DNA of 44,940 nucleotides from a virus. A program made the translations under genes and the position numbers. The DNA lies in the IMG/VR virus record IMGVR_UViG_3300032113_000026, positions 1 through 44,940 of that record. One strand, given 5' to 3'. The notes below the pieces were generated by a model. The model ran no database searches and had not been told where the DNA came from. It was given only the letters and a program-made list of their open reading frames with translations. Shown here one piece after another: positions 871-40,719 of the stretch. Positions within the stretch are counted from its first letter, which is position 1, and every line of letters begins with the position of its first letter.

Positions 871-3030
871 ATGAACGTTAAAACAATTAATGCAGAAGCT
901 GCCAGCAAGATTGACCGTTTCGCAGCAGTAAACACTATCGTCAGCAAATATGTGTTAGATATGCCACATATTCAGAACTCCTCAAGACAAGAGTTTAGCA
1001 AAAGCAACGAATATTGGCTTATAATTTTGACTACCATCTTAAACAATGGTTTTACTAATGAGCTTCTACTAGCAGCTAGTTTTAAAAAGAACTTAACTAG
1101 AATGCAGAAAGTAGATGGTATACTTATGAAGCTTGACTTTACACAGGAAGAGGGTCTCGAACTAGCTAGAAAGATTAGACCTTTTCTTTATTTGAACATT
1201 ATTGAGAATGATGGTTATCATCCTTTGGTAGAGAAGAGAAGCTCTATACATTCTTATGAAGCTGATGGTGTAGAGATTAAGACTACTGTATGGAAGTTGA
1301 CTCCAGCTATAGAAGAGTTGATAAACCTAAAGCTACTATCTCTTAAAGATAAGGCGATAGGTAAAGCTACATTACTGCTAGATGCACCTAAACCATGGAC
1401 TGGTAACAGAGAAGGTGTTATGGATGAATATCGTCGTCCACTAAGCAAAGCATATATTGGTGATATGCCTGACGAGCCTTTAGCTGTAGTTAATAAGCTA
1501 CAAGCTGTCCGTTTAGCTGTTAGTAGCAGCAGTATTAAACAGAGCTTACATCGTGTTAGTAATTTGCACAAGTATAAGCCTAACGTCAAAGGATTGCATA
1601 GTAGTGTGCAGAAGGATGAGCTTGATAAGTTTGAGAGTAAGACTCGCGCTTATCAGCAGATCAGTCAGTATCCTATAGGTACAACTGGATACTTGACTCA
1701 GTTGATAGATTATAGAGGTAGAGTATGTTATCTTAATAGAAGTGCTACTCCACAGGGTTGTAGTTTTGAAAAGGCAGCATTTAAGTTTGCTGATAAAGTA
1801 GCTTTCGGTTTAGGTTGGGAGCGTTGCTTGTTCTGGCTACATGCTGGTTTAGCTAGAGAGTTTGGCTTTATAGATGCAGGTAATGGTGAGGATTATACTC
1901 GTGAAGAACAAGCAGAGTATGGAAAGCAGATCAGCACCACTAGTAGGAGTCACGATGAAGTTGTAGAGTACTTTAAATTGTTTCCTCCTAAACAGATTAA
2001 ACGTGGAGACAGTGACTTAGCTTGGAGTATTATACAGGAGATACAAGCATTTAATAATCATTGCTTAACTAGTGATCCTAGCCTTTTTATGTCAGGGTTT
2101 GTATATCAAGTTGATGGTAAGGCTAATGTACTACAACATATGAGTGCTTTAACTCGTTGTGGTGCTACAGCAAAGGCTTGTAATGTAATCAGTTCTACAG
2201 GTCGTCCAAGAGATCCTTACAATATGCTTTATAACGCTATTGTAGAGACTCTACGGCATGATGTAAAAGTAGAGTATATACAGTTGAAGGCTGAGTTGTT
2301 AACTGAAGTGCTTAAACTTGGACGTAATACGTTTAAGGTTCTCATGACTTACTGTTATGGTGCTAGTGCAGGTACTATCGTCTCTGGGTTTATGGCAGCT
2401 CTAAGCGGTACTCCTGCAGAAAGTAGAGAGCATAGTGACTGTTTGTATAATATATTTGAGCTAGTGGCTTTAGAAGAGTTCCCTGCTATATTTAGCCTGA
2501 AAACGTTTATGCATAAAGTAGCTGATCCTATATTGACTGAGCAGTTTGGTGCTGAAGAGCCGGGTGGCAATCGTAGCGGGAGTCCTCTGACTTATACATT
2601 AGATGATAAAGATGTTCGTATGACTTGGACTTCACCTAGTGGGTTTAAAGTGCAGCATCTGCATTTCGAGCAAGAAGTTATTCGTACAGGGTTTATAAAC
2701 ATATCGCCAGACGGTGATAAGGATTATGACTATAGAAAGATGTTGACTGCTCTTAGTCCTAACTTCGTGCATAGCCTTGACGCTGCTCACCTTGGTAAGG
2801 TGGTACTAGCATTTGATCATAACATGGTTACTATTCATGATAGCTATGGATGTCATTTAGCTTATGTTGATGAGCTTTTAGAAACTATTAAAGTGGAGTT
2901 TGTTAAAATGTATAAAGAGCCTTTGTTGAATAAGTTTGGTAAGGAGATTAATCCTAATTCTCAAGATTTCATGAGAGATCCAGACTTTGAAATTGATGAA
3001 GTATTACATAGTAACTATTTATTTAGTTAA
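871..3030 (+). CDS. T7-type single-subunit DNA-directed RNA polymerase (RNAP1)
   Basis: A 719-residue single-subunit polymerase that would transcribe phage genes after host RNA polymerase has made it. Visible motifs in order are PKPWTG in the N-terminal half, IDYRGRVC (T7 DWRGRVY), motif A VDGKANVLQHMSAL with catalytic D415, motif B ending TYCYGAS with Y496, SPNFVHSLDAAHL, and motif C IHDSYG with D657. The C-terminus NYLFS resembles the T7 end DFAFA. T7 RNAP is 883 residues, and the shortfall is mainly N-terminal, where the T7 promoter-melting domain lies. The specificity loop between the SPSGFKV and SPNFVHS motifs is shorter than in T7 and lacks its R/N/R/Q signature. Spacing between the motif B Lys (K489) and Y496 is one residue shorter than in T7. 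ATG 871 follows GGAGC. Confidence 0.96.
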   Translation: MNVKTINAEAASKIDRFAAVNTIVSKYVLDMPHIQNSSRQEFSKSNEYWLIILTTILNNGFTNELLLAASFKKNLTRMQKVDGILMKLDFTQEEGLELARKIRPFLYLNIIENDGYHPLVEKRSSIHSYEADGVEIKTTVWKLTPAIEELINLKLLSLKDKAIGKATLLLDAPKPWTGNREGVMDEYRRPLSKAYIGDMPDEPLAVVNKLQAVRLAVSSSSIKQSLHRVSNLHKYKPNVKGLHSSVQKDELDKFESKTRAYQQISQYPIGTTGYLTQLIDYRGRVCYLNRSATPQGCSFEKAAFKFADKVAFGLGWERCLFWLHAGLAREFGFIDAGNGEDYTREEQAEYGKQISTTSRSHDEVVEYFKLFPPKQIKRGDSDLAWSIIQEIQAFNNHCLTSDPSLFMSGFVYQVDGKANVLQHMSALTRCGATAKACNVISSTGRPRDPYNMLYNAIVETLRHDVKVEYIQLKAELLTEVLKLGRNTFKVLMTYCYGASAGTIVSGFMAALSGTPAESREHSDCLYNIFELVALEEFPAIFSLKTFMHKVADPILTEQFGAEEPGGNRSGSPLTYTLDDKDVRMTWTSPSGFKVQHLHFEQEVIRTGFINISPDGDKDYDYRKMLTALSPNFVHSLDAAHLGKVVLAFDHNMVTIHDSYGCHLAYVDELLETIKVEFVKMYKEPLLNKFGKEINPNSQDFMRDPDFEIDEVLHSNYLFS

Positions 3031-3042
3031 ATATTAGAGCTT

Positions 3043-3065
3043 AACTCTAGTATTATACTAGAGTT
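3043..3065. terminator. Perfect 10-bp stem hairpin after RNAP1
   Basis: AACTCTAGTA (3043-3052) pairs perfectly with TACTAGAGTT (3056-3065) around a TTA loop, 12 bases after the RNA polymerase stop codon. There is no U tract directly after it, so it could be a terminator or pause site for a phage polymerase, an RNase III processing site, or an operator. Together with the palindrome at 815-836 it brackets the polymerase gene. Confidence 0.5.
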
Positions 3066-3098
3066 TAGGCTGTTAATTTAAAAAAAAAAGGAAATGTT

Positions 3099-3215
3099 AT
3101 GTTAGAATGTATTGAGCTTGGTATGGATTACGAGATGTATTGTGATTGGTGCGGAGAAGCAGAACCAGTTGAACAAGAGCTATACGAGATGTATTGTTTT
3201 TTTGAATTTAATTAG
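3099..3215 (+). CDS. Small Cys-containing acidic protein, unknown
   Basis: A 38-residue open frame starts at ATG 3099 behind AAAAGGA, following a run of ten A. It contains a CDWC pair and repeated DYEMYC / LYEMYC phrases, so a small metal-binding fold is possible. The next gene starts 9 bases downstream. I do not recognise it. Confidence 0.5.
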   Translation: MLECIELGMDYEMYCDWCGEAEPVEQELYEMYCFFEFN

Positions 3216-3224
3216 AGGTGTATT

Positions 3225-3530
3225 ATGTTTTATGCAGTTAATATCAGAGCAAGAATAGTAATCGGTAGAACTAGAGTTTATTGTGGTAGACCGAAAGCTG
3301 GTAGTTTAAGTCCATTAGGTAATCCATTTACTGTTGAGAAGTATGGCAGAGATGGTTGTATAGCTATGTTTAAAAAGCATATGGATAAGGATGTTAAAAT
3401 TCCAGGTGCTTTTAGAGATGAGATGATTAGACTATATAGAATGAGTGGTGATGTTGAATTAGCTTGCTTTTGTAAACCTAAATCATGCCATTGCGATCAT
3501 TTAGCTGATTTTTTAAATCAGTTTTCCTAG
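3225..3530 (+). CDS. DUF4326 family protein
   Basis: A 101-residue protein with the features of the DUF4326 family: an N-terminal R.RVYCGRP segment, SPLGNPF at about residues 29-35, and a C-terminal Cys/His block LACFCKPKSCHCDHLADFL (about 80-98). That block probably binds metal. Proteins of this type are common in phage genomes, and I know of no firmly established role. The leader GAGGTGTATTATG recurs exactly at 3743-3755, and the gene is followed by a decayed partial copy of itself. Confidence 0.8.
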   Translation: MFYAVNIRARIVIGRTRVYCGRPKAGSLSPLGNPFTVEKYGRDGCIAMFKKHMDKDVKIPGAFRDEMIRLYRMSGDVELACFCKPKSCHCDHLADFLNQFS

Positions 3531-3738
3531 CGGCTCAGTTAGAGCTTAGACCTAGCGGTCGGCTTAGTAAAATTAACGAGGGTTCTTATGCTGTTAATAT
3601 TAAAGTAGAGGGGTGATTTTTTATGATGTTATATTAGAGTCGGTAAACCGAAATCTGGTTTAAGTTCTACTGAGAAGTATCTGTTAAAAGGTGCTTTTAG
3701 AGATGATTGTTAGCTTGCTTTTGCAAGTTGTTTTTAAA
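3531..3738 (+). pseudogene. Decayed, internally deleted copy of the DUF4326 gene
   Basis: This stretch has no usable open frame, but its sequence follows the upstream gene in order. TGCTGTTAATATTA (3589) matches the start near 3234. GGTAAACCGAAATCTGGT near 3642 matches GGTAGACCGAAAGCTGGT near 3285. GAGAAGTAT near 3672, AGGTGCTTTTAGAGATGA near 3690 and TTAGCTTGCTTTTGCAAG near 3710 all match parental segments, with stretches missing between them. It ends where a copy of the same leader begins. The best reading is a tandem duplication eroded by deletions. Bases 3531-3583 also hold CCTAGCGG twice (3527 and 3551), with no gene seen. Confidence 0.75.
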
Positions 3739-3752
3739 TTTTGAGGTGTATT

Positions 3753-3950
3753 ATGAGTGTTTTATTGTTTTTAGTAAGTTCATTAGGTCTTATTTTATTC
3801 AGTCTAGTCGTTGTTTGTTTGTTAGTAGCTTCTATGACGTTAATAATAGGTAGTTTGTTTAATGCTTTGTTAGTGACTGTGAGATTGTTTGAATTAGACA
3901 GTCATGAGGGTTTCAGTATTGACCTACGTACAAGGGCTAGAAGTGTATAG
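3753..3950 (+). CDS. Small membrane protein, unknown
   Basis: A 65-residue protein. I chose ATG 3753 because GAGGTG lies just upstream; an in-frame TTG at 3741 is less likely. Residues 2-46 are strongly hydrophobic and long enough for two closely spaced membrane helices, followed by a charged tail ending RTRARSV. Its leader is a copy of the leader of the DUF4326 gene. Small early membrane proteins in phages often alter host functions, but none is indicated here. Confidence 0.55.
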   Translation: MSVLLFLVSSLGLILFSLVVVCLLVASMTLIIGSLFNALLVTVRLFELDSHEGFSIDLRTRARSV

Positions 3951-4143
3951 TATTATTAAACACCTGCCAGAGGATTTGAAACCTCTGGTAGAAGCTATTC
4001 CTGAAGAAGTGTTCAATTATATGTGGGATAAAGATATTATGGCTGTTTTCACCAATAAGGGTAGCATGTCCGAAAGGCAGGATATGTGTATTAAGTTGAA
4101 TAAGTTAGCTTTAGTTATTCAAAAGTTTAAGGGGGAGAGATGA
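3904..4143 (+). CDS. Hypothetical small protein
   Basis: A 79-residue open frame overlapping the previous gene by 47 bases. An in-frame GTG at 3943 would almost remove the overlap. The product is mixed helical and charged (LPEDLKPLVEAIPEEVFNYMW, then a Lys-rich end). No family is recognised. It joins the next gene through an overlapping ATGA. Confidence 0.5.
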   Translation: MRVSVLTYVQGLEVYSIIKHLPEDLKPLVEAIPEEVFNYMWDKDIMAVFTNKGSMSERQDMCIKLNKLALVIQKFKGER

Positions 4144-4280
4144 AGATATTTACATGGGCTAAGGCTCAATTAGAAGTAGACAGAAATAGAAAGCTTCAGG
4201 AAGAAGCTTGTAAAAAGCGAGCTATAGAGCTTGCTTTAATTGACTGTAAAGAACGAGAAGCGTGTACGAAACGCTCTTAG
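4140..4280 (+). CDS. Hypothetical 46-residue helical protein
   Basis: A short frame from ATG 4140, preceded by GGGGGAG and overlapping the previous stop as ATGA. The product is charged, probably one long helix, with three cysteines (about positions 24, 36 and 42). No function is recognised. Tight coupling with both neighbours supports it as a real gene. Confidence 0.45.
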   Translation: MKIFTWAKAQLEVDRNRKLQEEACKKRAIELALIDCKEREACTKRS

Positions 4281-4402
4281 TTAAATGCATGCAAGAGAAT
4301 ACTAGAGAAGGGGCTGTGGATGCTTTTAGATATATAGCAGAGCAGCTTAACTTCGAGTACGAATACTTAGAAATGGTTAAGGATATTTATGGACGTTATT
4401 AG
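4262..4402 (+). CDS. Hypothetical 46-residue acidic protein
   Basis: A frame from GTG 4262 to TAG 4402, overlapping its upstream and downstream neighbours by 19 and 14 bases. The product is acidic with an aromatic C-terminal half (FEYEYLEMVKDIYGRY). It is unrecognised. The start codon is non-ATG and the ribosome site (GAGAAG) is weak. Confidence 0.4.
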   Translation: MYETLLVKCMQENTREGAVDAFRYIAEQLNFEYEYLEMVKDIYGRY

Positions 4403-4520
4403 ATATCTTGGAACTACAGAAGTTGATTTCTTAGCTTACCTTGGAAAGTTTAGTTGGGTGAGATGTAAGAAATGTACTGTTAGGGTGTTATCTTGTATGA
4501 TTAACGTGAGACCATTTTAA
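4389..4520 (+). CDS. Hypothetical 43-residue protein
   Basis: A frame from ATG 4389 to TAA 4520 inside the row of overlapping early micro-genes. A CKKC pair sits at about residues 26-29 and a third Cys near 36. It is not recognised. Evidence is limited to the open frame and its packing. Confidence 0.35.
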   Translation: MDVIRYLGTTEVDFLAYLGKFSWVRCKKCTVRVLSCMINVRPF

Positions 4521-4531
4521 TAGAGGTAGAG

Positions 4532-4984
4532 ATGAAAGAGATTATTAAAAGACTAGAGATATTATTAGAAGATTTGAAGTATAAGGCGTTGACCTTAGAA
4601 GAGAAATTAGAGAGGGTAAAATTAGGTGAGTATAGGTTAGATTGTTTAGAAGTGAGATTAGCTATAATTAAAGTGTGTGATACTCAGTTTATAACAGATA
4701 ATCTATTTGAATATGATTCTAGTGAAGCTGTTAGACTAGAAGCTGTAAAAAGATGTGCTTTAAAAGATATTTTTAGGTTTTCTGAAGATACTCTTACAAT
4801 TAGGCTGGTAGCTGTGGAGAGGTGTAATGCTGAGGATTTATATAAGTTTATAAATGATGATGAGTGCATAAGAGCTGTAGCTGCTAGGCGTTGTTTGAAG
4901 AAACTTTTACCTGTGTTTATACAGGATGATTGTGAGAAGGTTAGAGACATTGCAATTGAACGATTTGGAGAGAGTTATGAATGA
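4532..4984 (+). CDS. LRV/HEAT-like repeat protein, copy 1
   Basis: A 150-residue protein built, after a helical N-terminus, of about four units of 23-26 residues. Each unit reads (V/I)R..A..RC....L..F..D. This pattern fits leucine-rich-repeat-variant or short HEAT-like solenoids, which are usually protein-binding surfaces. Cys recurs at the same place in the units. The start follows AGAGGTAGAG. The gene ends in GESYE and overlaps a shorter paralogue that ends the same way. A binding role against a host protein is inference from the fold type and early position. Confidence 0.65.
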   Translation: MKEIIKRLEILLEDLKYKALTLEEKLERVKLGEYRLDCLEVRLAIIKVCDTQFITDNLFEYDSSEAVRLEAVKRCALKDIFRFSEDTLTIRLVAVERCNAEDLYKFINDDECIRAVAARRCLKKLLPVFIQDDCEKVRDIAIERFGESYE

Positions 4985-5294
4985 TGTGATTAAAGTGTTA
5001 GAAATACTTATAGAAGAGCTTGACTATTTAGATAGGGTAAATAAGTGTGCAGCTGAGGATGTTTATGAATTCTTTCAGGATGGCTCTGTAAATATCAGAT
5101 TGATAGCTGCGGAGAGATGTAAACTTAAACATTTACCGAAGTTGTGTTATGATGAAAGTACAGAAGTGAGATTAGTAGCTGTTAAACGTTGTAATAAAGA
5201 TCTGTTAATTACTTTTATGGATGATCCATCTAAAGAGGTTGTAGATATTGCTATTAAACGTTTTGCTAAATTACATGGGGAGAGTTATGAATAA
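4977..5294 (+). CDS. LRV/HEAT-like repeat protein, copy 2
   Basis: A 105-residue paralogue of the upstream gene. The N-terminal phrase VIKVLEILIEELDYLD mirrors IIKRLEILLEDLKY in copy 1, then about three RC...L..F..D units follow, and it ends in the same GESYE. Copy 2 lacks roughly one to two repeat units. I prefer ATG 4977 because GGAGAG precedes it, and the same GAGAGTTATGAAT junction occurs at both gene boundaries. The Cys spacing is kept. Confidence 0.65.
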   Translation: MNDVIKVLEILIEELDYLDRVNKCAAEDVYEFFQDGSVNIRLIAAERCKLKHLPKLCYDESTEVRLVAVKRCNKDLLITFMDDPSKEVVDIAIKRFAKLHGESYE

Positions 5295-5586
5295 CGAATT
5301 AAAAAGATTATGTATAGGACAAAATGATGTAGTGCCAATGGTTGAAGTAAAGCCTTACAAAGAGGATGCTATAGTACAGGTTAAAGTAGGTAGAAGATAT
5401 GTACCACTTGATAGTATATTAGGTTATAAGAGTAATGGTATAGTATGCAACACTTGTGATATAAATGTTGTTATGGATTTATTGGAAAGAGATCTTAGTA
5501 TTGGACTGTTGGATAATGCTATTAGTTATGTAGCACTTGAACATAGTTTTAAATTAAGATTGAAAAAAGCAAGGCTTGAGTTATAG
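5287..5586 (+). CDS. Hypothetical 99-residue protein
   Basis: It starts at ATG 5287 within the GAGAGTTATGAAT junction and overlaps the previous gene by 8 bases. Residues 20-45 look like a beta-rich segment (VEVKPYKEDAIVQVKVGRRY), followed by a helical C-terminus. No family is recognised. It is the last gene before a structured 90-base leader and the replication block. Confidence 0.55.
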   Translation: MNNELKRLCIGQNDVVPMVEVKPYKEDAIVQVKVGRRYVPLDSILGYKSNGIVCNTCDINVVMDLLERDLSIGLLDNAISYVALEHSFKLRLKKARLEL

Positions 5587-5593
5587 TCAATAG

Positions 5594-5660
5594 CACTAGC
5601 TTCTAAGGAGGCTAGTTCTCTTGGTTACCACCAAGAAACAAAGATGACATTCCGTTGTCT
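5594..5660 (+). promoter_or_regulatory. Three tandem stem-loops in an intergenic leader
   Basis: Stem 1 pairs 5595-5603 with 5608-5616 (nine pairs, one G-U, loop TAAG). Stem 2 pairs TCTTGGT (5619-5625) with ACCAAGA (5630-5636) around TACC. Stem 3 pairs 5642-5648 with 5654-5660 with two G-U pairs. They fill the gap between the early genes and the gene at 5677, whose ribosome site TTAGGAG follows at once. Possible roles are mRNA processing, stabilising the downstream message, or termination of early transcripts. No U tract follows. Confidence 0.6.
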
Positions 5661-5676
5661 AAATTAGGAGATAAAT

Positions 5677-6093
5677 ATGAAAATTAATATGAAAGGCGTT
5701 ACTACTAAATCAAATGCAGTTAAATTAACTACTACAACAATGAATGTAACTCAGTTACGTGAAGCTGTTAAGGTTGGTGTTAAGGTTGATGTTAAAGGTG
5801 TTACTGTAATATCAGTACGTTTAGGTCAGTTGCCTGTTAAAATCTTTGATACAGATGAAGGTATGACTAATGTAGCTTATGTTGCAGATGGTAATGAGGA
5901 TGCTATCAAAACAGTAACTGATGCTGTTAAGGTTGAGATTGCTGCTGGCGGTTTGGATAAAACTTTGTTAGAGTTACAAGCTCGTATTCGTGAGATTGCT
6001 GCTACTCGTAAAGCAACTGCTAAGAAGCTTCGAGAAGATAAAGCAGCAGCAACAGAAGAATTAGCAGAAGAAGCTGATCTCTCTGAATTGTAG
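5677..6093 (+). CDS. Hypothetical protein with acidic C-terminal tail
   Basis: A 138-residue protein with a Val/Thr-rich N-terminal half and a helical second half, ending in an acidic tail (EELAEEADLSEL). Its ATG 5677 has a good ribosome site and sits behind a structured leader, suggesting high expression. It is translationally coupled to the primase gene (TAGTG overlap). Acidic tails occur on phage DNA-binding replication proteins such as T7 gp2.5, but I see no OB-fold signature, so function is unassigned. Confidence 0.6.
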   Translation: MKINMKGVTTKSNAVKLTTTTMNVTQLREAVKVGVKVDVKGVTVISVRLGQLPVKIFDTDEGMTNVAYVADGNEDAIKTVTDAVKVEIAAGGLDKTLLELQARIREIAATRKATAKKLREDKAAATEELAEEADLSEL

Positions 6094-6842
6094 TGGATTG
6101 GCTAACTGTTGCTGAACGGTTAGCTGTAGGGAAATCCAAGAGGGTTAATTGTGAATGTGGTGATGGTCATTCCGCCAGCATCTCACGATTACCTCTTGGG
6201 TACTCTTACTTTTGTTTTAGATGTTCTAAAAAGGAGTTTATTAGAGGTCATTTAGAAATTAAGGATTTAAAACCTATAGAAGAGGAGATAGTATGCATAG
6301 AACTACCGAAGAGTGTAGCATTGCCGGATATAGCGAGGATTTATTTGTGGAAGATTGGAATAGGAACGTATTTAATAGAAAAGTACGGGATAACTTGGAG
6401 TATAAAAATGGAAAGGCTAATACTTCCTTGCGAAGTGAATCAAGAGCTAGTAGCTTATATAGGAAGAGATGTGAGCGGACGAAGGAAAATAAAAGCGGTA
6501 AACTCAATAGACAGAAACAGTCCTTATCATATGTCGAAGAATAGCTTAGGTGATATAGTATGTTTGGTTGAGGATTACTTTTCTTGTATAAAGGTTGGAG
6601 AGGTTATACCTTGTATTAGTTTGAATGGTACTAAATTAAGTAGTGTTGAAGAGCTTAAGGGGTATAAGACTGTTGTGATTTGGTTAGATCCAGATAAGGC
6701 TGGTAGAAATGGAGCTATTAAAATTAAGAAACAACTACAGAGTCAGTTTGTTATAGTTATAATTAATAGTAAACGTGATCCTAAGTATCATAGTATTAAG
6801 GAGGTTAGAGATGCTATTAGTGCTAAAGTTGCTTGCTCATGA
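6093..6842 (+). CDS. DNA primase (Zn-finger plus TOPRIM)
   Basis: A 249-residue primase that would make RNA primers for the lagging strand. Residues 20-44 hold a zinc-finger-like set (C20, C22, H26, C41, C44). The TOPRIM core follows in the second half: LVEDYFSCIKVGE carries the conserved Glu, and VVIWLDPDKAGR carries the metal-binding DxD. In T7, primase and helicase are fused in gp4; here they are separate, adjacent genes. The start is GTG 6093, sharing a base with the previous stop codon. The helicase gene starts within its last codons. Confidence 0.85.
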   Translation: MDWLTVAERLAVGKSKRVNCECGDGHSASISRLPLGYSYFCFRCSKKEFIRGHLEIKDLKPIEEEIVCIELPKSVALPDIARIYLWKIGIGTYLIEKYGITWSIKMERLILPCEVNQELVAYIGRDVSGRRKIKAVNSIDRNSPYHMSKNSLGDIVCLVEDYFSCIKVGEVIPCISLNGTKLSSVEELKGYKTVVIWLDPDKAGRNGAIKIKKQLQSQFVIVIINSKRDPKYHSIKEVRDAISAKVACS

Positions 6843-7998
6843 TAGAAAGGAGTACGATCGTGTAGAGAGGTATATAGACTTCTCTAGGTGGGAGAGACCA
6901 GAGAAGAATGTGCTAAAGGTGTTATTATCTTATAAGGAGGAGGTAGATCTTCCTGATATAGAGAGTATATTATGTACTAGATATAAGGATAAAGATGTTT
7001 ACAGACGTATAGTTAGAAATATGAGTAAACCTTTAAATGCGACTATGAAGGCTTGTGTACTAGAGCAGATACTGAGTACTAATCTAGCTAATGATTTAAC
7101 GGATAAGTTATATAAGTTTGAAAGCGGAGAGGAGATTAATATTATAGATGAGGTTAAGAAGAGTCTCTCTTTAGCTGATGTACAGGTAGTACCTAAAGAT
7201 GAGGAGGCTGTTATGGATGGTTTATTTGAAGAAATTACAGGTGGTTTGGTTTGGAGTATTCCTGTTTTAAATGACTACTTACGTCCACTAAGGCCTGGAG
7301 ATGATCTTATTGTTGCTGCTAGACCTGACATGGGTAAGACTACGTTTCTAGCTCAAGTAATGACTGGGATGTTATGTCAGACTGATAAGATTGGAGTTTG
7401 GTTTAATAATGAGAGTAGTAAGAACACTATACTAAAGCGTTGTATACAAAGTAGTCTTGGTGTATTAAACTCAGAGATGCGAGAGATGCATGCTGCTGGA
7501 GTTCTTAAAGAGAAGTATTATAAGGCTATGGGTGGAGTTGATAAGATACTGGTGTTTGATATTCATGGTAAGTCAGAAAAAGATATAGAGAAGATACTTG
7601 ACGGTTTAGATAATGTTGGTATAGTGGTGTTTGATATGCTGGACAATGTAAGATTAAGTACAGAAGCGTCTGGTGATAAGTCTTATAAAACACTTGAGAA
7701 GCTTTATATATGGGCTAGGGAGCTTGCTGTTATAAGAGAGTTTGTAACTATAAAGACTTCACAGATATCAGCTGATGGAGCTGCTGTGCCTTATCCTATG
7801 TGTAGTTTACTTAAGGATTCTAAAACAGGTAAGCAAGGAGCTACTGATACTATATTTTTAATAGGACACAACAACGAAGATGGGCAAGAGTTTGTAAGGT
7901 ACTTCTCATGTCCTAAGAATAAATTAAGGAAAGAGGGTAGTAAAGTGATGAGACTACAAATGATATTAAATGCTGATAGGGCAAGATATGAAAGTTAA
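6811..7998 (+). CDS. DnaB/gp4-type replicative helicase
   Basis: A 395-residue RecA-fold helicase of the DnaB superfamily (SF4). Walker A is ARPDMGKTTF with K176, and Walker B is IVVFDML with D275. WFNNESSKN after Walker A and the late TDTIFLIGHN / FSCPKNKLR segments fit the family. I chose ATG 6811 because AAGGAGG sits 6 bases upstream; an in-frame ATG at 6775 would add 12 residues and has no such site. It should assemble as a hexameric ring at the fork and work with the upstream primase. Confidence 0.85.
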   Translation: MLLVLKLLAHDRKEYDRVERYIDFSRWERPEKNVLKVLLSYKEEVDLPDIESILCTRYKDKDVYRRIVRNMSKPLNATMKACVLEQILSTNLANDLTDKLYKFESGEEINIIDEVKKSLSLADVQVVPKDEEAVMDGLFEEITGGLVWSIPVLNDYLRPLRPGDDLIVAARPDMGKTTFLAQVMTGMLCQTDKIGVWFNNESSKNTILKRCIQSSLGVLNSEMREMHAAGVLKEKYYKAMGGVDKILVFDIHGKSEKDIEKILDGLDNVGIVVFDMLDNVRLSTEASGDKSYKTLEKLYIWARELAVIREFVTIKTSQISADGAAVPYPMCSLLKDSKTGKQGATDTIFLIGHNNEDGQEFVRYFSCPKNKLRKEGSKVMRLQMILNADRARYES

Positions 7999-8224
7999 AG
8001 AATTTGTAAAGCTTATAAAGAACTTTAAGGGAGTATACATTAATGGTTATGTTGAATCAGCTTACTTTGCTACAGAGGATAGGGTGCTTACTGTTCTTAC
8101 TTATGGTGATAGATCAAGTGGTGAGCAGTTGGTAAAGGTACTTGAGGGTTTCAATGGGCATATAGCTATTGAAGTTGATAATGAATGGGAACATGTGGAG
8201 ATTAATGATGTTGAAGATATGTGA
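7988..8224 (+). CDS. Hypothetical small protein
   Basis: A 78-residue protein starting at ATG 7988, inside the last codons of the helicase gene. It begins MKVKEFVKLIKNFKG and ends in an acidic stretch (WEHVEINDVEDM). Short proteins of this kind (MKV.EF...L) are common in phages, and I cannot name a function. An earlier in-frame ATG at 7970 is less likely. Confidence 0.5.
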   Translation: MKVKEFVKLIKNFKGVYINGYVESAYFATEDRVLTVLTYGDRSSGEQLVKVLEGFNGHIAIEVDNEWEHVEINDVEDM

Positions 8225-8300
8225 ATGGGTGGTTACAGGAGTATTTGGGCTAGTTTTGTTTGTTTTATTTCTAATGATATTCTTAGGGTTTCAGGCATGA
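8211..8300 (+). CDS. 29-residue single-pass membrane peptide
   Basis: A frame from TTG 8211 to TGA 8300. The product is almost one hydrophobic helix (GVFGLVLFVLFLMIFLG). It overlaps the preceding gene, and its stop overlaps the ATG of the next as ATGA. The start codon is uncertain, so it is a weak call supported mainly by hydrophobicity and packing. Confidence 0.35.
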   Translation: MKICEWVVTGVFGLVLFVLFLMIFLGFQA

Positions 8301-8389
8301 AGATGTTAAATAAGGTGGTTAAGGATAGTTATGAATGGGTTATTATAGCTCTGGTTTCAGTAGCATTGGCTTGTTTAACTTATGTATAG
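8297..8389 (+). CDS. 30-residue single-pass membrane peptide
   Basis: A frame from ATG 8297 to TAG 8389. A short charged N-terminus (MKMLNKVVKDSYEW) is followed by one hydrophobic helix (VIIALVSVALACLTYV). It overlaps both neighbours. It could be a small accessory membrane protein, with no function recognised. Confidence 0.4.
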   Translation: MKMLNKVVKDSYEWVIIALVSVALACLTYV

Positions 8390-8546
8390 ACTAAGTGATA
8401 AAGAGATGTACATTGAGGAGTACGAGCCAGTAAATCATTTGGAGATGGAGATAGCTAGAGTTAAGAGATTAAAACCTCAAACAGAGGAAGAAGCAGAGGC
8501 TTCTTTTGGGTTTTGGGACAGAGTGTTTTGTGTTTTAGGGAGATGA
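8382..8546 (+). CDS. Hypothetical 54-residue acidic protein
   Basis: A frame from ATG 8382 to TGA 8546, overlapping the previous frame by 8 bases. The product is acidic and probably helical, with an aromatic C-terminus (FGFWDRVFCVLGR). No family is recognised. Confidence 0.4.
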   Translation: MYRLSDKEMYIEEYEPVNHLEMEIARVKRLKPQTEEEAEASFGFWDRVFCVLGR

Positions 8547-8547
8547 T

Positions 8548-8703
8548 ATGGATAATGGTGAAGCTAAGCAAGCAAGAGCTACAGCTAGGAAGTTAGGTGG
8601 TAGAATTTATATACTAGGTGATTTAAGTTTCTGGGTATTTGTTAAAGATAATATTGAGTATAAGTTCAAAACTTTAGAGGAGTTTATGGTGTGGGCTGTA
8701 TAA
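8548..8703 (+). CDS. Hypothetical 51-residue protein
   Basis: A frame from ATG 8548, behind AGGGAGA, to TAA 8703, overlapping the start of the DNA polymerase gene by 13 bases. It has a basic helical N-terminus followed by a short beta-like stretch (GGRIYILGDLSFWVFV) and an acidic helix. It is unrecognised, but the ribosome site is good. Confidence 0.45.
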   Translation: MDNGEAKQARATARKLGGRIYILGDLSFWVFVKDNIEYKFKTLEEFMVWAV

Positions 8704-10952
8704 CTATTGATTTAGAAACTAGTATATATAAATCCTATAAGAGAACTGCTAATCCTTTTGATAATCGTAACAGAGTTATAATGACGGGTTACAAGTATGA
8801 TGATCAAGAGGCTATTGGGATGTACTTTAAAGAAGAAGCAGATGAGATACTACCAGAGCTTGATGTTGATCTTATGATAGGGTTTAACATTAAGTTTGAT
8901 ATGCTGTATTTCTGGGAAGAGTTAAAGTTTAGAGATTTTCTTTTAAAAGGTGGAGAGATTTATGATTGTCAGTATGTGGAGTATCTGTTGGATGGTGCTG
9001 CGAGAAGAAGCCATATGGGTAATTTGTCCGATACTGCTGTTAAGTACGGTGGGACTGCTAAGCTTGATGTGGTAAAAGAGTTATGGAAGGAGGGTGTACA
9101 GACTATTGATATACCTGAAGAGACTTTAACGGCTTATCTTTTAGGAAGTGAAAGAGATGGTGTAGAGGGTGATATAGATAATACTTATAGAGTTTATCTT
9201 GGACAACAGGTGAGGATAGACAAGCTTGCTAATCCTGAAGCGTTCAGAGCTATGGTTAAGAACAGAATGGATGGATTGCTTTGCACTACTGAGATGGAAT
9301 TTAACGGTTTGTATATAGATCTTGATTCATCTGAAGCTATTAGAGATAAGCAGGTTAAGCTTATGGAAGAGAGTCTTGAAGAGTTGACTAAATTCTTACC
9401 TGAGCTTCCTGAAGGGTTTGTGTTTAATTGGAAGAGTAATGTACACAAATCTTGTGTGTTGTTTGGAGGTACTGCAAAGTATTCTAAATGGTTACCACAT
9501 TTACTAGATGGTAAGAAGTGCTACAGTAAGAAAACTGTTAGGATGCCTATGTTTGGTGGAGTAGTAGGTATAGGTGTGAAGTCAGGTGAGCTTTATTATT
9601 TAAAGAGTCCTACAGGAGATGTAGTAGGTAAGAAGGGTAGATATATAAAGCAAGATTGTTATAAGTCAGGTAAAAGAATTGGAGAAGGCAAGTTTAAGAA
9701 TGTAAAGGTTGATGACTTGACCAAAGTGAAGGGTAAGATAAACACTTTAACTTATACTTTTAAGGGTGTTACTACTCCTAAGGAGGAATGGGAACTAGCT
9801 AGTACGGATGCTGCTGGAAATAATCTGTATACTACTAACAATGTAGTGATGAGTGAGATTAGTAAATCGGATGTGGAGATGTGTAAAGCTTTAGGGGTTT
9901 ATATAAAAACTAATAAGGATTTAGGAACTTACTTCTGGATAGACAACGGTAAGGGTAAGAAGGGTATGTTGACGTTATGTCAAGGTAATATTATACATCA
10001 TTCTATAAATCATGTTAATACTGTTACTACTCGATTGTCAAGTAGTAATCCTAACAGTCAGAACATACCTAGAAAAGGTAATTCAGAGGTTAAGAAGCTA
10101 TTTACTAGCAGGTTTAAAGGACTTATGGCTGAGATTGATTTTAAACAGCTTGAGATACTGGTACAGGCTATATTGACTGGAGATGATGAGCTTATAAGTG
10201 GTATAAACGATGGTATTGATTTCCATTGTAAAAGACTTGCTCTACAGAAAGGAACTTCTTATGAAAAGCAGTTAAAGCTTTATAAGGCTGGAGATCCTCA
10301 AACTGTAGAAGATAGAGTAAAAGCAAAGGGCTTTAGCTTCCAAAGAGCGTTTGGGGCAGGAGCTAATGCTATAGCTAAGACTAATGGTATGGATATAGAT
10401 GTAGTTAAGCAGATGATTAAGAACGAAGAAGAGTTATATCCTAATATTACTGCTTTTGATAATATGTTAAAGACGCATATTATAAATAATATGACTGGTA
10501 ATAATCATGTAATAGTTAAGGGCGCTATGAGAACAGGTAAGGAGAGTGCTTGGCAAAGTCCTTTTGGAACTATATTTAAATGGTTTCAGGAAGAGAGTGA
10601 GTATAGTAGTAGTGGTTTAGATTTCTCACCTACACAGAGAAAGAACTATCCTGTACAAGGTACTGGGGGTGAGATTATGCAAACAGTGCTTGGAAAGTTG
10701 TATCGTTGGTGGATTGGTAAGAGTGATGAATTTAGAGCTAACGTAAAGTTGGTTAATACTGTACATGATTGTGTGGTATTAGATGGTGAAGAGAGATTTT
10801 TACTTCCTGCATTAGCAGAAGTAGAAGATATTATGACAAACGTACATATATACTATCTTGAAAGTTTTGGAATTGATATACCTGTAAGATTTAAGGTAGA
10901 TACTGAGATTGGTAAGAACTTATATGATATGAAACATTGGAGTAGAAAATGA
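8691..10952 (+). CDS. Family A DNA polymerase with 3'-5' exonuclease
   Basis: A 753-residue replicative polymerase of the T7 gp5/PolA type. The proofreading domain shows ITIDLETS (D7, E9) and MIGFNIKFD near residue 65. The polymerase domain shows motif A EIDFKQLE (D483), motif B R.KAKGFSFQRAFGAG, and motif C NTVHDCVV (H692, D693). In motif B, F550 aligns with T7 Y526/Klenow F762, and F554 takes the place of the usually conserved Tyr (T7 Y530/Klenow Y766). About 130 residues after the exonuclease domain (roughly 250-385) look like an enlarged Lys-rich thumb region. The start is GTG 8691, 8 bases after GAGGAG. The next gene overlaps by 4 bases. Confidence 0.93.
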   Translation: MGCITIDLETSIYKSYKRTANPFDNRNRVIMTGYKYDDQEAIGMYFKEEADEILPELDVDLMIGFNIKFDMLYFWEELKFRDFLLKGGEIYDCQYVEYLLDGAARRSHMGNLSDTAVKYGGTAKLDVVKELWKEGVQTIDIPEETLTAYLLGSERDGVEGDIDNTYRVYLGQQVRIDKLANPEAFRAMVKNRMDGLLCTTEMEFNGLYIDLDSSEAIRDKQVKLMEESLEELTKFLPELPEGFVFNWKSNVHKSCVLFGGTAKYSKWLPHLLDGKKCYSKKTVRMPMFGGVVGIGVKSGELYYLKSPTGDVVGKKGRYIKQDCYKSGKRIGEGKFKNVKVDDLTKVKGKINTLTYTFKGVTTPKEEWELASTDAAGNNLYTTNNVVMSEISKSDVEMCKALGVYIKTNKDLGTYFWIDNGKGKKGMLTLCQGNIIHHSINHVNTVTTRLSSSNPNSQNIPRKGNSEVKKLFTSRFKGLMAEIDFKQLEILVQAILTGDDELISGINDGIDFHCKRLALQKGTSYEKQLKLYKAGDPQTVEDRVKAKGFSFQRAFGAGANAIAKTNGMDIDVVKQMIKNEEELYPNITAFDNMLKTHIINNMTGNNHVIVKGAMRTGKESAWQSPFGTIFKWFQEESEYSSSGLDFSPTQRKNYPVQGTGGEIMQTVLGKLYRWWIGKSDEFRANVKLVNTVHDCVVLDGEERFLLPALAEVEDIMTNVHIYYLESFGIDIPVRFKVDTEIGKNLYDMKHWSRK

Positions 10953-11677
10953 ATATTGAAGAATATAATACAAGTATTAAAGAAGCTGGACTGAATGCTA
11001 GAAAATCAGCAGAAGAAGCTTTGGGAAATGAGCCTTTAAATAAAGGTGGTTGTACAGTTAGATTGCAAGCTGTAGTAGAGCTTGGGTTGCAAAAGTCATC
11101 TAACCCAGAATGGAATGATAAGTTTGAGAGACGTTTATCATTTGAGGTGTGTAGTAAAGCACATAATACAGGAAAAGCTGGAGAGTTAAATCATAGGTTA
11201 TTGCACCTTTATGTACCTGTGGCTACTACATTTAGTCCTAAAACATTAGAGAGCCGTTTGTTATCTGCTTTGGATTACAATAAAGATAAGGGTAATGTGA
11301 CAGATCATTTAGGACAACCATTTAAAGGTGTTATTAAACATGTAGTTAAGGATGGTAGAGTACTAGAGAAGCTTCGTGTGAGTCCTGATGATTATGAATT
11401 TTCAGCTCCTATTAATGAAGATTTAGAAACTGGTGAAGTCTCTATATTAAATGTTCCTGAGTTATTACGTAAACCTCTTATGTTTCTTTGGGAAAACCCA
11501 TATATGCCTGATGGTATGTATCTGGAAGCATGGAATAGCCTTTATGTAGAAGGTGTTTATAAGGATGGTAATAGTAAAAACACTTTACAGAATATCATTA
11601 AAGGAGGGTTACAGTTCAAGGGAAGTAGATTAGAGAACTTGATTGAAGATGCTAAAAGCAACTTTAAACCATTCTAA
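10949..11677 (+). CDS. Probable single-stranded DNA-binding protein
   Basis: A 242-residue protein between DNA polymerase and exonuclease genes. A segment near residues 33-105 (TVRLQAVVELGLQ, then ERRLSFEV, then LHLYVPVATTFSPKTLESRLLSAL) has the order of beta strands seen in a group of phage SSB-like proteins, in which the DNA-binding strands precede an S.LR..L helix. The position also fits. It lacks the strongly acidic tail typical of T7 gp2.5 and ends FKPF. The assignment is tentative. Confidence 0.45.
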   Translation: MNIEEYNTSIKEAGLNARKSAEEALGNEPLNKGGCTVRLQAVVELGLQKSSNPEWNDKFERRLSFEVCSKAHNTGKAGELNHRLLHLYVPVATTFSPKTLESRLLSALDYNKDKGNVTDHLGQPFKGVIKHVVKDGRVLEKLRVSPDDYEFSAPINEDLETGEVSILNVPELLRKPLMFLWENPYMPDGMYLEAWNSLYVEGVYKDGNSKNTLQNIIKGGLQFKGSRLENLIEDAKSNFKPF

Positions 11678-12555
11678 TGTGGATAGGTCAGGTTGATGCT
11701 GACAGGTTAGCTTGGGCTTACGCTAATTTAGGTAATCCCATAAGCTACTGTGAACAGGGCATAATGAGAAACTTACAGAGACTTAAAGTAGCTGCTGGCT
11801 GCGATAAGCTTAATCTTCATGTAACACTTGGAAATAAGGGAGGTAGAGAGGTTGTAGCTACTATTAAACCTTACCAGGGTAACCGTAAGGGTAAAGTTGA
11901 TAAAGAGAAAACAGATATGATAAATCTGTTGAGGCACTATATTGGGGATATCAGAACTAATGATATGGTTGGTATAAAGTGGTTAAATCAAGAAGCTGAT
12001 GATGGTATATGTCAAGTTCAAAGCTTAAGTGACAAAAGTATTGTAATTAGTGACGATAAAGACCTCAGAATGATTAGAGGTTGGCACTATGATAGAAAGG
12101 CTGAGGTTAGATTCTTAGTTAAGGACTTTGGTAAGGTACTTCGTAAGGAGAACAAAACTAAAACTTTATGGGGTGTTGGAACTTGTTTCTTCTGGCATCA
12201 GATGCTTATGGGGGATGCTGTAGATAACATTCCGGGATTAGAGAAGATGTCTGTTGACACTGTTAATGAGTTCTTTCCTATAAAAAGTAAAAAGAGAAAC
12301 CCTAAATTATGTGGACAAGTTAGTGCTATGAAATTACTAGATGGGCTTAAGACAGATTTAGAATGTTTTGAGCGTGTGTTAGGGTGTTATAAAAGTTATT
12401 ATGAACATGGTGAGGAGAGGTTCTTTGAACAGAGCGTACTGCTATGGATGCGTAGGAATGATAATATATTTGATGTATTAGATTTTCTCGAACCTTTAGG
12501 CTTTAAATATAAACCTCCTCAGGAACTGGTAGATAAAGTTAAGGAATGGCTATGA
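11677..12555 (+). CDS. 5'-3' exonuclease (FEN/T7 gp6-like)
   Basis: A 292-residue flap/5' exonuclease that would remove RNA primers and degrade host DNA. Conserved acidic clusters are visible: D7 region (GQVDADRLAW), EADDGI near residue 107, ISDDKDLRM near 128, and the helix-hairpin-helix-like GDAVDNIPGLEKM near 183. ATG 11677 overlaps the previous stop by one base. It sits with polymerase and ligase, completing Okazaki fragment processing. Confidence 0.85.
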   Translation: MWIGQVDADRLAWAYANLGNPISYCEQGIMRNLQRLKVAAGCDKLNLHVTLGNKGGREVVATIKPYQGNRKGKVDKEKTDMINLLRHYIGDIRTNDMVGIKWLNQEADDGICQVQSLSDKSIVISDDKDLRMIRGWHYDRKAEVRFLVKDFGKVLRKENKTKTLWGVGTCFFWHQMLMGDAVDNIPGLEKMSVDTVNEFFPIKSKKRNPKLCGQVSAMKLLDGLKTDLECFERVLGCYKSYYEHGEERFFEQSVLLWMRRNDNIFDVLDFLEPLGFKYKPPQELVDKVKEWL

Positions 12556-13280
12556 GACCGCAGTTAGCGTTAAACATAAATAAATGTAGTAAACGTAGAT
12601 TAGATGCCTTAAGAGGTAAAAAGGTTTTAGTAAGTGAGAAGCTAGATGGTCACTACGGTTATATAAATGCTGGTGATAATACAGTGTATAGTAGAACAGG
12701 TAAGGTAATTAATCTGGACATTGAATGGGAAAAGTTTAATGGTGAGGGTAGGTTTATATTTGAAATGTACGATGGTGGGGATGCTTATAGTGCTAAGAGT
12801 GCTATCAGTACAGGAGTTATAGAGTTACATTTGCATGATGTAATAGTTGATATTAGGGAAGATGCTCTTGAGCGTGTTAAGAGACTTGAAGATTATGGAA
12901 TCTTTACAGTTGTTAAGCACACTGAGGAGAACTTTGATGATAGGTTAGCTTTAGCTGAAGAGGTTTGGTCTGCTGGTGGTGAAGGTATAATGCTTAAGAG
13001 TGGTTGTTATAATCCAGGATGTAGAGACAGTTCTTTGATGAAGCTGAAGAGAAGCATTAAAGTTACTGGTAAGGTTACAGGACACCAGGAAGGGATAAGT
13101 AAAGGTAGCTTTGTAGTTATGCTTGATTCAGGAGTTGAAGTTAAAGTAGCTGGTATTACAGATGATCTGTTTATAAGAATGTGTAAAGAGCAGCCTAGGG
13201 TTACTTTAAGCTGTATGGGAATTAATGCTTCAGGTAAACTTAGAGAGCCTAAGTTTAATACTATTCATTGGCAAGGTTAA
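12552..13280 (+). CDS. Minimal ATP-dependent DNA ligase
   Basis: A 242-residue nucleotidyltransferase-type ligase. Motif I SEKLDG holds the adenylated Lys K30. RTGK follows, then FIFEMYDGG (motif III), EGIMLKSG (motif IV) and LMKLKR (motif V). A short OB-fold domain ends the protein. It is smaller than T7 ligase (359 residues), and no extra DNA-binding domain is seen. I prefer ATG 12552 (AAGGA 6 bases upstream, ATGA overlap with the exonuclease stop) over ATG 12546. Confidence 0.9.
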
Positions 13281-13567
13281 CGGCTAGACTTGTTAAGATG
13301 GCTAGGGAAAGATTGGTATTTTCACAGGGAGGTAAATGTGAAATATGTGGTATGGTTTTTACAAAAAGAGATTATGCTGTGTTAGATCATTGTCATGAGA
13401 CAGGTAAAGTGAGAGGAGCTATACATAACAGTTGTAATGGAGGTGAAGGTAAGGTAAGACATAAAGCGAGCTGGTCACATAAGGGTGTTAGTAAGACAGA
13501 TTTTCTTATAGGTTTAGGAAAGTACTTAGAGAAGTATAAACTAGATCCTAGAAGTATATCTAGATGA
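13268..13567 (+). CDS. Endonuclease VII-like Holliday junction resolvase
   Basis: A 99-residue HNH-type nuclease of the recombination endonuclease VII family. It has C24-x2-C27, then [12 protein letters not shown] (D40, H41, H43), then HNSCN with C56 and N57. Family members cut branched DNA, clearing replication intermediates before packaging. In T4 endonuclease VII the zinc is held by two Cys pairs; here the second pair appears as H53/C56. The start is TTG 13268, overlapping the ligase gene, or ATG 13298. T7 uses an unrelated resolvase (gp3), so this is a functional replacement. Confidence 0.85.
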
Positions 13568-15756
13568 ACATGGCAGACCAGATTGCTTTTGAAGAGCAAA
13601 GTCTTAAGGAACATAGGGATAGGTTTCTAAGTAAGTTTGACGGTACACTTCCAGCAAATAGGCTGGCTAAGGCTAGATTGTTGGAGGTTTCCAAAAAGCT
13701 GGAAGTGTTATCCAAAACTGGCGGTAGTGCTGGTAGATATAATAAAATACTTAAAGACAGTGTTATAGACAACGATTGGATAACTGTAGCGTATATAGGT
13801 ATATCAGAGTTGTTTAAGGTGCTTTATACAGATGCTAATACTTTACAGAATATAATACATGATGTAGGGACGCAGTTGGAGAATAACTTTAGGAGTATGA
13901 TATTCCAAAGAGACCATAGTCATAGAGTTAAGGGTCTTAATAAACAACTTGTAAGTACTAATAGTAGGGATAAAGCGTTTGCAGAGAGAAGCATTCGTGC
14001 TATTATAAATGATAGTAACTTAGATTGGAAGAAGTGGGATAGGGTAACAATAGGACATGTTGGATCAAGGATTATAAGATGTGTTCTTGATGTATACGCT
14101 GATATATTCTCAATAGAGATGTATAACGTTGGTAATAAGAGCTGGAATAGAGTAGTGGTATCTGAAAAGTATAAGGATTGGAAAGATGAATATGCTGAGT
14201 TTGCTGCTGTTCAACATACTAGCCCTTTACCGCTTATGATTAAACCTTTAGATTGGACAGGTGATGAGGTTGGTGGTTATTATACTGCTGCTTTACAAGT
14301 TAAGCAGATAAAGAGTCACAGTAAGTTGCATGATAAGAATACTTCTACAGGTGAGTTGCATAGGAAAGCTATGAACAGACAACAAGCTGTAGCTTGGAAG
14401 ATTAGTGGTATACTTGAGGTACTACAGAGTATGCTTAGTAATGATGAGTTTAAAATATTTGATAAACATGTTTACGTTGACTATAAACCTAAGGAGCTTG
14501 AGATACATAAGGAGTTTAGAACTAAGGATCAAGAGGCTATAGTTAAGGTTTGGAAGAGGCTTAAGAGGGATGATTATACTGCTGAGATTAAGTGGAATAA
14601 CTATATGCAGAAGAATAGCTATACGCTTAAGGCTGCATTAAAGCTGAGATCTTGGGGAGAGCATTATTATGTGTATACATGTGATATGATAGGGAGGATG
14701 TATTCATTAGGTAAGGGTGTGAATCCACAATCTAGAGATTTAGAGAGAGCATTAGCAGACTTTAGGGATGAGGTAGTAGTAACTACCAGAGGAGTGGAAA
14801 GAATAAAGATACATACTGCTAATATGTATGGTATAAAAGGAAGTGAAGAGGATAAGCTTAAATGGTGGGAAGATAATAAGGACATGATATCGGCTTGTAA
14901 GGATTATAAGTGTATGCTTTGGGTAGATGCAGATAAACCTTTTTGTTTCCTAAGAGCTTGTATGGAGGATTTCAAGAAGAGTTCATTACCAGTAGCTATA
15001 GATGGGGTATGTAATGGTATACAACATTACTCTGCACTGTTTAGAGATGAGGTTAGTGCTAAACATGTAGGTATAGGTGTGTCTGAGCCGTCTGATCTGT
15101 ATACTGTGCTGCTTGATAAAGTTTATGATAAAATACCTTTGGATGTTTTAAATAGAAAGGTTATAAAGAAGATGGTGCTTCTTGTAGTGTTTGGTAGCGC
15201 TATACATAGATTAAGTTGGAAGTTGCATGAGTTCTTTGAAGATAATGGTATTAATTTGGAACAAGATTTAATTGACAAAGTAACTAAAGTTATAGTTAGA
15301 GTTATGAAAGAGGAGATTAGTTGTGTGCTAACTGGAACGAAATTACTTCAAGGTAAGGTTAACGGATTTATGTCTTGGACTACACCAGTTGGGTTTAAGG
15401 TGTTTCAACCTTATACTAAGAATAATAAGACTAGGATTAATTTAGTTATAGGTAGGCCTATTAGGATGCAGTTGAACAACCCTACTGAAGAGGTTGATGT
15501 GAGAAAGCAGAAACAGGCTTACCCACCTAATTACATACATAGTTTAGATAGTAGCCACGCTGTTGATATATGTAATAATACTACAGGGCCTATACGTTGT
15601 ATATTTGATGATTTTGCTGTGCATTGTAATTACGTAGACAACTTAGAGAGAGTGGTACAAGATACGTTTGTGTGTATGTATGAGAATCTTATTGAAAAGA
15701 AGCTTGGTACATTAGATATTAATAAAGTAAAAGGTAGTAAGTACTTTTTCTGTTAG
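13564..15756 (+). CDS. Second T7-type single-subunit RNA polymerase (RNAP2)
   Basis: A 730-residue protein with full-length T7 RNAP architecture. KPLDWTG and DMIGRMY..GVNPQ are followed by motif [20 protein letters not shown] (D480; T7 D537). Motif B reads [16 protein letters not shown], keeping the R627 and K631 equivalents (K535) but with F543 where T7 has Y639. The specificity loop keeps R624, N626, R634 and Q636, matching T7 R746, N748, R756 and Q758 with identical spacing. [14 protein letters not shown] follows, then motif C I-F681-D682-D683 instead of HDS. It ends SKYFFC. The catalytic Asp pair is intact, so it is probably active. It differs strongly from RNAP1 and likely serves another promoter class. 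ATG 13564 overlaps the resolvase stop. Confidence 0.92.
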
Positions 15757-40380: not shown

Positions 40381-40719
40381 ATGCAAATAAATAATGTAGA
40401 AGCGGTTTTATTAGGTGATCTTGCAAACGCTAGTCACGATATCAATCAGTTACGGTCAGTTACTAATGTAATTGGCAGAGGACATTATAGCAATGTTCAA
40501 GTAGCAATAGCTACTGATGATAAGTTTTCAGGATCAACTGAGACTAACGATAGTCAAGCTGTGTTTGTGAGTCTTGGTTATATGAAACCTTGGTGTAGAG
40601 TTGGGCAGATTGAAAGTTTGATCTGGGATAGTAAGTTTTCAGGAAATAATCCTGATTTAATTAAACATTATAGCACTATTGTGCCTAACTTTAATTATGA
40701 TACAGGAGAGCATGCGTGA
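40381..40719 (+). CDS. Hypothetical protein of the adhesion block
   Basis: A 112-residue protein with GGAG before ATG 40381, placed between large terminase and the fibre genes and overlapping the next by 4 bases. It contains two DDKFSG/DSKFSG-like phrases about 40 residues apart, suggesting a short internal repeat. It is probably a small tail or fibre-associated protein, by context only. Confidence 0.5.
   Translation: MQINNVEAVLLGDLANASHDINQLRSVTNVIGRGHYSNVQVAIATDDKFSGSTETNDSQAVFVSLGYMKPWCRVGQIESLIWDSKFSGNNPDLIKHYSTIVPNFNYDTGEHA

Follow-up and report, generated by a model that had tools for sequence, protein, structure and literature searches.

A podovirus genome with two T7-type RNA polymerases and natural substitutions at near-invariant active-site residues

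The window analysed here is a whole virus record of IMG/VR (IMGVR_UViG_3300032113_000026; 44,940 bases), which carries two genes for single-subunit RNA polymerases (ssRNAPs) of the T7 type, named here RNAP1 and RNAP2. The pair is already known from published genomes, and the window is a deep-branching member of the group with unusual substitutions: in RNAP2 the tyrosine that corresponds to T7 Tyr639 is replaced by phenylalanine, a natural loss that appears to be new here and is otherwise unseen among the sequences compared. The window is best explained as a podovirus of the phiKMV-like part of Autographiviridae, within a wider group that carries two T7-type RNA polymerases. The overall reading, to which a probability of roughly 0.6 is given, is that a phage of this group combines a resident RNAP2 with an RNAP1 from an older branch, deploys them in a cascade, and makes RNA with an RNAP2 whose ribose selection is relaxed.

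Both enzymes are T7-type RNA polymerases

The two genes are as follows.

871..3030, + strand: RNAP1, a single-subunit T7-type RNA polymerase of 719 amino acids (aa); second gene of the contig, in an early position
13564..15756, + strand: RNAP2, a single-subunit T7-type RNA polymerase of 730 aa, between endonuclease VII and the portal region

A sequence-only reading of this DNA had claimed two complete, deeply diverged ssRNAPs with little similarity to each other in a single podovirus, and this description holds: both frames are open and begin with ATG, and their products are about 31% identical over 115 aa. Both have the Pfam RNA_pol fold (E=2.6e-37 for RNAP1 and 8.7e-54 for RNAP2) and match the PHROG 414 RNA polymerase family (7e-64 and 2.7e-125, respectively), and their AlphaFold models, with a mean predicted local distance difference test (pLDDT) value of 78.6 and 86.7, both have a T7 RNAP complex as the best match in the Protein Data Bank (PDB; TMq 0.68 and 0.83). 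Motifs A, B and C and the catalytic aspartates, also named in that reading, are all present in both enzymes (Asp415 and Asp657 in RNAP1, Asp480 and Asp682 in RNAP2), and the equivalents of T7 D537/D812, R425, R627, K631 and H784 are kept in both; what had been overlooked is that motifs A to C are abnormal. The homology of the two enzymes is not in doubt, while their canonical activity, as judged from these residues, is.

The pair in other phages and its descent

The sequence-only reading held that T7-like phages normally carry one RNA polymerase and N4-like phages several; a restriction of multiple polymerases to N4-like phages is not supported, the same pair being present in Foturvirus and Tawavirus genomes. 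The pair was recovered by a search of phage genomes that the reading had suggested: tblastn against 50,697 phage records located both enzymes in Alteromonas phages R8W and H4/4 and in Vibrio phages JSF7, phiV141 and the K series, and with the R8W enzyme as query, RNAP1 was detected at E <= 1e-50 in 26 records (23 Vibrio, 3 Alteromonas). Read gene by gene, H4/4, R8W, phiV141 and K437b carry RNAP1 among the early genes of the left part, and their RNAP2 is flanked by endonuclease VII (or MazG) on one side and the portal region on the other; in JSF7 this order recurs on the opposite strand. In the Foturvirus Alteromonas phages vB_AspP-H4/4 and vB_AmeP_R8W, RNAP1 occupies the left end and RNAP2 lies between endonuclease VII and the short tail fibre/portal genes, as in the window, and both enzymes are orthologous to those of the window, although only about 30% identical to them. 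The same pair in the same positions occurs in the Tawavirus phages JSF7 and phiV141 and in the unclassified Vibrio phages K365-K466 (29-30% identity for RNAP2, 25-28% for RNAP1). The H4/4 genome announcement states “two DNA-dependent RNA polymerases” (PMC5658483), and no study of how the two enzymes of such phages are used was found in the open-access literature. At least four IMG/VR contigs also carry an RNAP1-type and an RNAP2-type gene (G002, G011, G020 and G046); a further contig, G001 (L014), was discarded as a case of RNAP2 absence because it is without that whole region. Two other IMG/VR contigs, from a different kind of virus (L023 and L029, of 66.7 and 51.1 kb), have two ssRNAP genes about 9 kb apart that fall outside the RNAP1 and RNAP2 clades, and two-polymerase genomes thus seem to have arisen more than once.

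Could the pair have been created by a chimeric or otherwise faulty assembly that joined RNAP genes from separate phages? The contig comes from a metagenome and stops within a 31-bp tandem repeat; however, nearly all of its genes, both polymerases included, stand in the same order in independent genomes, some of them isolates, which makes such an origin extremely improbable.

In phylogenetic trees, the RNAP1 sequences (the window enzyme together with those of R8W, H4/4, JSF7, phiV141 and K437b) form one clade and the RNAP2 sequences another, with Shimodaira-Hasegawa-like approximate likelihood ratio test (SH-aLRT) support of 95-100; trees and synteny alike place the window, with an RNAP1-clade gene at the left end and an RNAP2-clade gene before the portal region, in the Foturvirus/Tawavirus-like group, and its pair shares descent with the pairs of those two genera. 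RNAP1 and RNAP2 are not recent duplicates, since a topology that joins them in a single clade is rejected by the approximately unbiased (AU) test (p-AU 0.006). RNAP2 is nested among the enzymes of podophages with a single RNAP, while RNAP1 branches far outside them, and in phiKMV and RHEph02 the sole RNAP occupies the RNAP2 position (endonuclease VII, RNAP, portal), so that the window displays the phiKMV-like architecture in which an RNAP gene adjoins the structural genes. The simplest reading is that RNAP2 would be the resident enzyme and RNAP1 an acquired one, which would stem from a far older branch and, like the T7 enzyme, be kept near the left end, and that the two have since descended together.

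A relationship between RNAP1 and the RNAPII of N4 was also considered. N4 RNAPII (gp15 + gp16; Schitoviridae) is a T7-type enzyme made early; it forms a separate clade and is split, whereas RNAP1 of the window is one chain. An initial tree did join RNAP1 of the window to N4 gp16, but the grouping, flagged as a long-branch artefact, disappeared once complete RNAPII sequences and additional RNAP1 sequences were included. N4 also carries a giant virion RNAP of about 3,500 aa; the largest open reading frame (ORF) of the window encodes 1,855 aa, its sole match being an internal virion protein akin to T7 gp16.

The closest relative and its split RNAP1

The closest relative, L194 (IMGVR_UViG_3300012933_000174, identical to G046; 49,450 bp), was found only through alignment of the DNA polymerase; IMG/VR scans with RNAP1, RNAP2 or TerL as single proteins yielded no close relatives, and a third member of the lineage was looked for and not found. 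L194 and the window agree in the order of nearly all their genes, at identities of 54% for the DNA polymerase, 61% for TerL, 37-38% for RNAP2 and 35% for the major capsid protein. In both polymerase clades the window and L194 enzymes pair with each other (support 99-100), as sister to the Alteromonas and Vibrio enzymes; the two genomes are a sister lineage to the known two-RNAP phages, which is new here.

Unlike that of the window, RNAP1 of L194 is divided into two ORFs (1059-2279 and 2469-3965; 406 and 498 aa), a structure seen in one contig, where an assembly fault is possible. The 189-bp spacer includes a stop, a 28-codon ORF and a strong hairpin (structure z -3.9). An intron was considered and set aside, there being no Rfam match and the structured spacer having its own stop, start and small ORF. 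The break (...FANKTSLAG / MKTLKRAFFWL...) coincides with that of N4 RNAPII between gp15 and gp16 (...FAEKEVID / MQTFTAREYL...). The split is nevertheless independent of N4, because the AU test rejects a clade of the L194 enzyme and N4-type RNAPII (p-AU 1e-4). How heterodimeric RNAPs originated and what advantage they bring has been described as unclear (PMC4496689).

Altered active-site residues and ribose selection

In an alignment with 178 other ssRNAPs (T7 numbering), R423, Y427, G542, K631, Y639 and H811 are unchanged in all 178, and neither enzyme of the window keeps intact the near-invariant set formed by R423, Y427, G542, the K631-Y639 spacing, Y639 and H811. RNAP1 departs by Y427C, G542V and the loss of one residue between K631 and Y639, changes confined to the window, L194 being normal at all three. 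RNAP2 departs by R423I, M635L, Y639F and H811F; Phe at Y639 and Ile or Val at R423 are common to the window and L194 (row L262) and absent from the 178 others, while M635L and H811F belong, of these two genomes, to the window alone, L194 being normal there. The Foturvirus enzymes are normal at Y639, R423, G542, H811 and the motif-B spacing, and the active-site residues of the Vibrio phage enzymes are likewise normal.

2113..2130, + strand: RNAP1 motif A, from catalytic Asp415 (T7 D537) to Val420 (T7 G542, codon GTA); Gly in 178/178 others by alignment
2323..2358, + strand: RNAP1 motif B, Arg485 to Tyr496 (RNTFKVLMTYCY), one residue shorter between the equivalents of K631 and M635/Y639; spacing normal in L194 (row L263)
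2839..2841, + strand: RNAP1 motif C, catalytic Asp657 (T7 D812, HDSYG)
14689..14691, + strand: RNAP2 Ile376, at the T7 R423 position; Val in L194, Arg in 178/178 others
15001..15003, + strand: RNAP2 catalytic Asp480 (T7 D537)
15154..15192, + strand: RNAP2 motif B, Arg531 to Phe543; Phe543 (15190-15192, TTT) corresponds to T7 Y639 and is common to L194
15604..15609, + strand: RNAP2 motif C, Phe681 (T7 H811, window only) and catalytic Asp682 (T7 D812)

The residues reported to sense the ribose are Y639, H784 and G542 (PMC11617373). A laboratory Y639F-type change preserves RNA synthesis and weakens ribose discrimination in the T7 and Syn5 RNAPs (PMC6834552; PMC11617373), and a laboratory Tyr-to-Phe change at this site in KP34 RNAP kept the incorporation of nucleoside monophosphates (NMPs) and admitted the deoxy forms (dNMPs) (PMC6834552). 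The engineered T7 Y639F, T7 G542V and KP34 Y603F enzymes bear the same substitutions at ribose-discriminating residues as those of the window; they are laboratory-made, whereas the substitutions of the window are natural and their effect is predicted only. Since the KP34, T7 and Syn5 enzymes behave in this way, RNAP2 is expected by homology to be active with weaker ribose selection than its relatives: deprived of the Tyr639 hydroxyl, it would discriminate less well between ribo- and deoxyribonucleoside triphosphates and would still make RNA. A broader proposal, which we advance as tentative and rather doubtful, is that a natural Y639F-type RNAP2 with relaxed ribose selectivity, a paired RNAP1 split into a putative heterodimer in the sister phage, and a side chain at G542 in RNAP1 of the window would together make a phage transcription system in which at least one of the two enzymes selects sugars in an unusual way.

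A joint loss of ribose-sensing residues in both enzymes is not claimed: given that the two enzymes depart at 4 and 5 of 25 conserved columns, the odds that each of them is struck at one of the three ribose residues are about 0.2 by hand calculation. As such a joint loss is unremarkable, the proposal on ribose selection rests on the Y639F shared by RNAP2 of the window and L194. Two further candidates were dropped, namely a linked Y554F change in the O-helix of the DNA polymerase, which occurs in 3/52 other DNA polymerases, and tyrosine depletion or a changed genetic code, the amino-acid make-up and codon use of the window being ordinary.

The odd residues could instead mark loss of function, with one or both enzymes decaying and the phage relying on the other or on the host RNAP. 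In a leave-one-out comparison the two enzymes depart from near-invariant columns more often than any others in the set (at 4 and 3 positions, against none in 155/174), RNAP1 of the window is alone in having both G542V and the motif-B deletion, RNAP2 is evolving fast, and no promoter family was found. However, both frames are fully open over 2.2 kb with confident structure models, all catalytic Asp, Lys and Arg residues and His784 are kept, and the two main changes of RNAP2 have outlasted a long divergence, F639 being common to enzymes only 38% identical, which argues against simple decay. Expressed as the window-to-others distance divided by the R8W-to-Vibrio distance, divergence is 1.43 for RNAP1, 1.44 for TerL, 1.38 for the DNA polymerase, 2.30 for RNAP2 and 2.75 for the major capsid protein, so that RNAP1 has diverged at the genome-wide rate. 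Decay is therefore considered unlikely, albeit an alternative of some weight.

Promoters and the proposed cascade

15433..15471, + strand: RNAP2 specificity-loop segment R624-Q636, matching T7 R746/N748/R756/Q758 by spacing; not conserved in relatives

It had been proposed that RNAP2 retains the T7 specificity residues, that RNAP1 has a shorter loop, and that two non-overlapping promoter classes follow. The loop of RNAP1 is indeed the shorter, and R, N, R and Q do stand at T7 positions 746, 748, 756 and 758 of RNAP2 by ungapped spacing, but they cannot be called retained: L194 has V/H/R/K, R8W T/K/R/K and the Vibrio phages R/D/K/T, so the match is chance-like rather than inherited and says little about promoters. 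A scan for repeated 18-mers with up to 3 mismatches, which recovers the promoters of the positive controls T7 (16 partners), RHEph02 and KP34, found no repeated promoter-like family in the window, R8W, H4/4, phiV141, K437b or JSF7, against the expectation of two classes; the repeated words of the window fall inside coding sequence, and repeated-word, intergenic-comparison and sigma-70 scans of the window gave nothing above expectation. Two promoter classes are neither shown nor excluded, and two polymerases need not imply them, since the single KP34 RNAP reads two unrelated classes (PMC6834552).

Near the left end of H4/4 (L004, 216-272) and R8W (L003, 27-68) lie two to three close copies of TATGTCTCTTTTG, and a similar word follows the capsid gene; these may be control or packaging sites.

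The cascade is suggested by gene order, RNAP1 lying close to the left end and RNAP2 immediately ahead of the structural genes, which is compatible with early RNAP1 and later RNAP2. Host RNAP would make RNAP1 first, RNAP1 would transcribe the early/middle block including the RNAP2 gene, and RNAP2 would transcribe the structural genes. Alternatively, both enzymes could be active without a cascade, through shared promoters, parallel action, or the employment of one as a replication/primer or packaging enzyme. The lack of distinct promoter classes in every two-RNAP genome scanned and the dual reading by the one KP34 enzyme speak for this arrangement, but the fixed, differing positions of the two genes in all genomes seen and the difference in length of the DNA-contacting loop render it quite unlikely.

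Several points weigh against a cascade in which a ribose-relaxed RNAP2 takes the later part. Both the cascade and the relaxed ribose selection are steps that we infer; the motif-B deletion may impair RNAP1 of the window; and partial decay of RNAP2 is possible, because this enzyme evolves fast in the lineage (2.30 against 1.38 for the DNA polymerase) and the window copy adds the odd changes M635L and H811F. A third, divergent transcription system is also possible.

Other features of the genome

8691..10952, + strand: family A DNA polymerase, 54% identical to that of L194; rate control and route to the closest relative

Around the RNAP genes lie those for a primase, a DnaB-like helicase, the family A DNA polymerase, an exonuclease, a ligase and endonuclease VII, and further portal, tail tubular, internal virion and terminase genes. 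The major capsid protein (18531-19721) has diverged even beyond RNAP2, with 27% identity to R8W as against about 50% between R8W and the Vibrio phages. The tail tubular protein A (TTA) gene (19722-22763; 1,013 aa) consists of some five to six degenerate tandem TTA-like units, with six PHROG 446 stretches and matches of the R8W protein in five places, while the TTA of relatives is a single unit of about 196 aa. Positions 3586-3726 resemble a shortened, degenerate copy of the adjoining gene 3225-3530 (PHROG 464), a small phage pseudogene. An 87-bp tandem repeat in the first gene (139-303) encodes a Lys/Ala-rich stretch, and two large genes after the terminase (40716-44115; 628 and 506 aa) have no convincing family match. 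The repeat at the contig end (44859-44940) is a perfect 31-bp tandem with 2.6 copies, as would be anticipated close to the end of a T7-like genome, at which assembly breaks off.

Implications

Phages with this pair would allow a two-enzyme cascade other than that of N4 to be studied in a small and tractable system. In addition, the textbook rule by which Tyr639 and Gly542 are essential finds a natural test in the lineage of the window. The parts most worth bench work are the natural Phe639 of RNAP2 and the independent split of RNAP1 in the relative, which provides a second case in which to ask why heterodimeric RNAPs arise. If the Phe639 enzyme does work, it would show that natural polymerases can dispense with strict ribose discrimination, and the lineage would supply ready-made polymerases for 2'-modified RNA.

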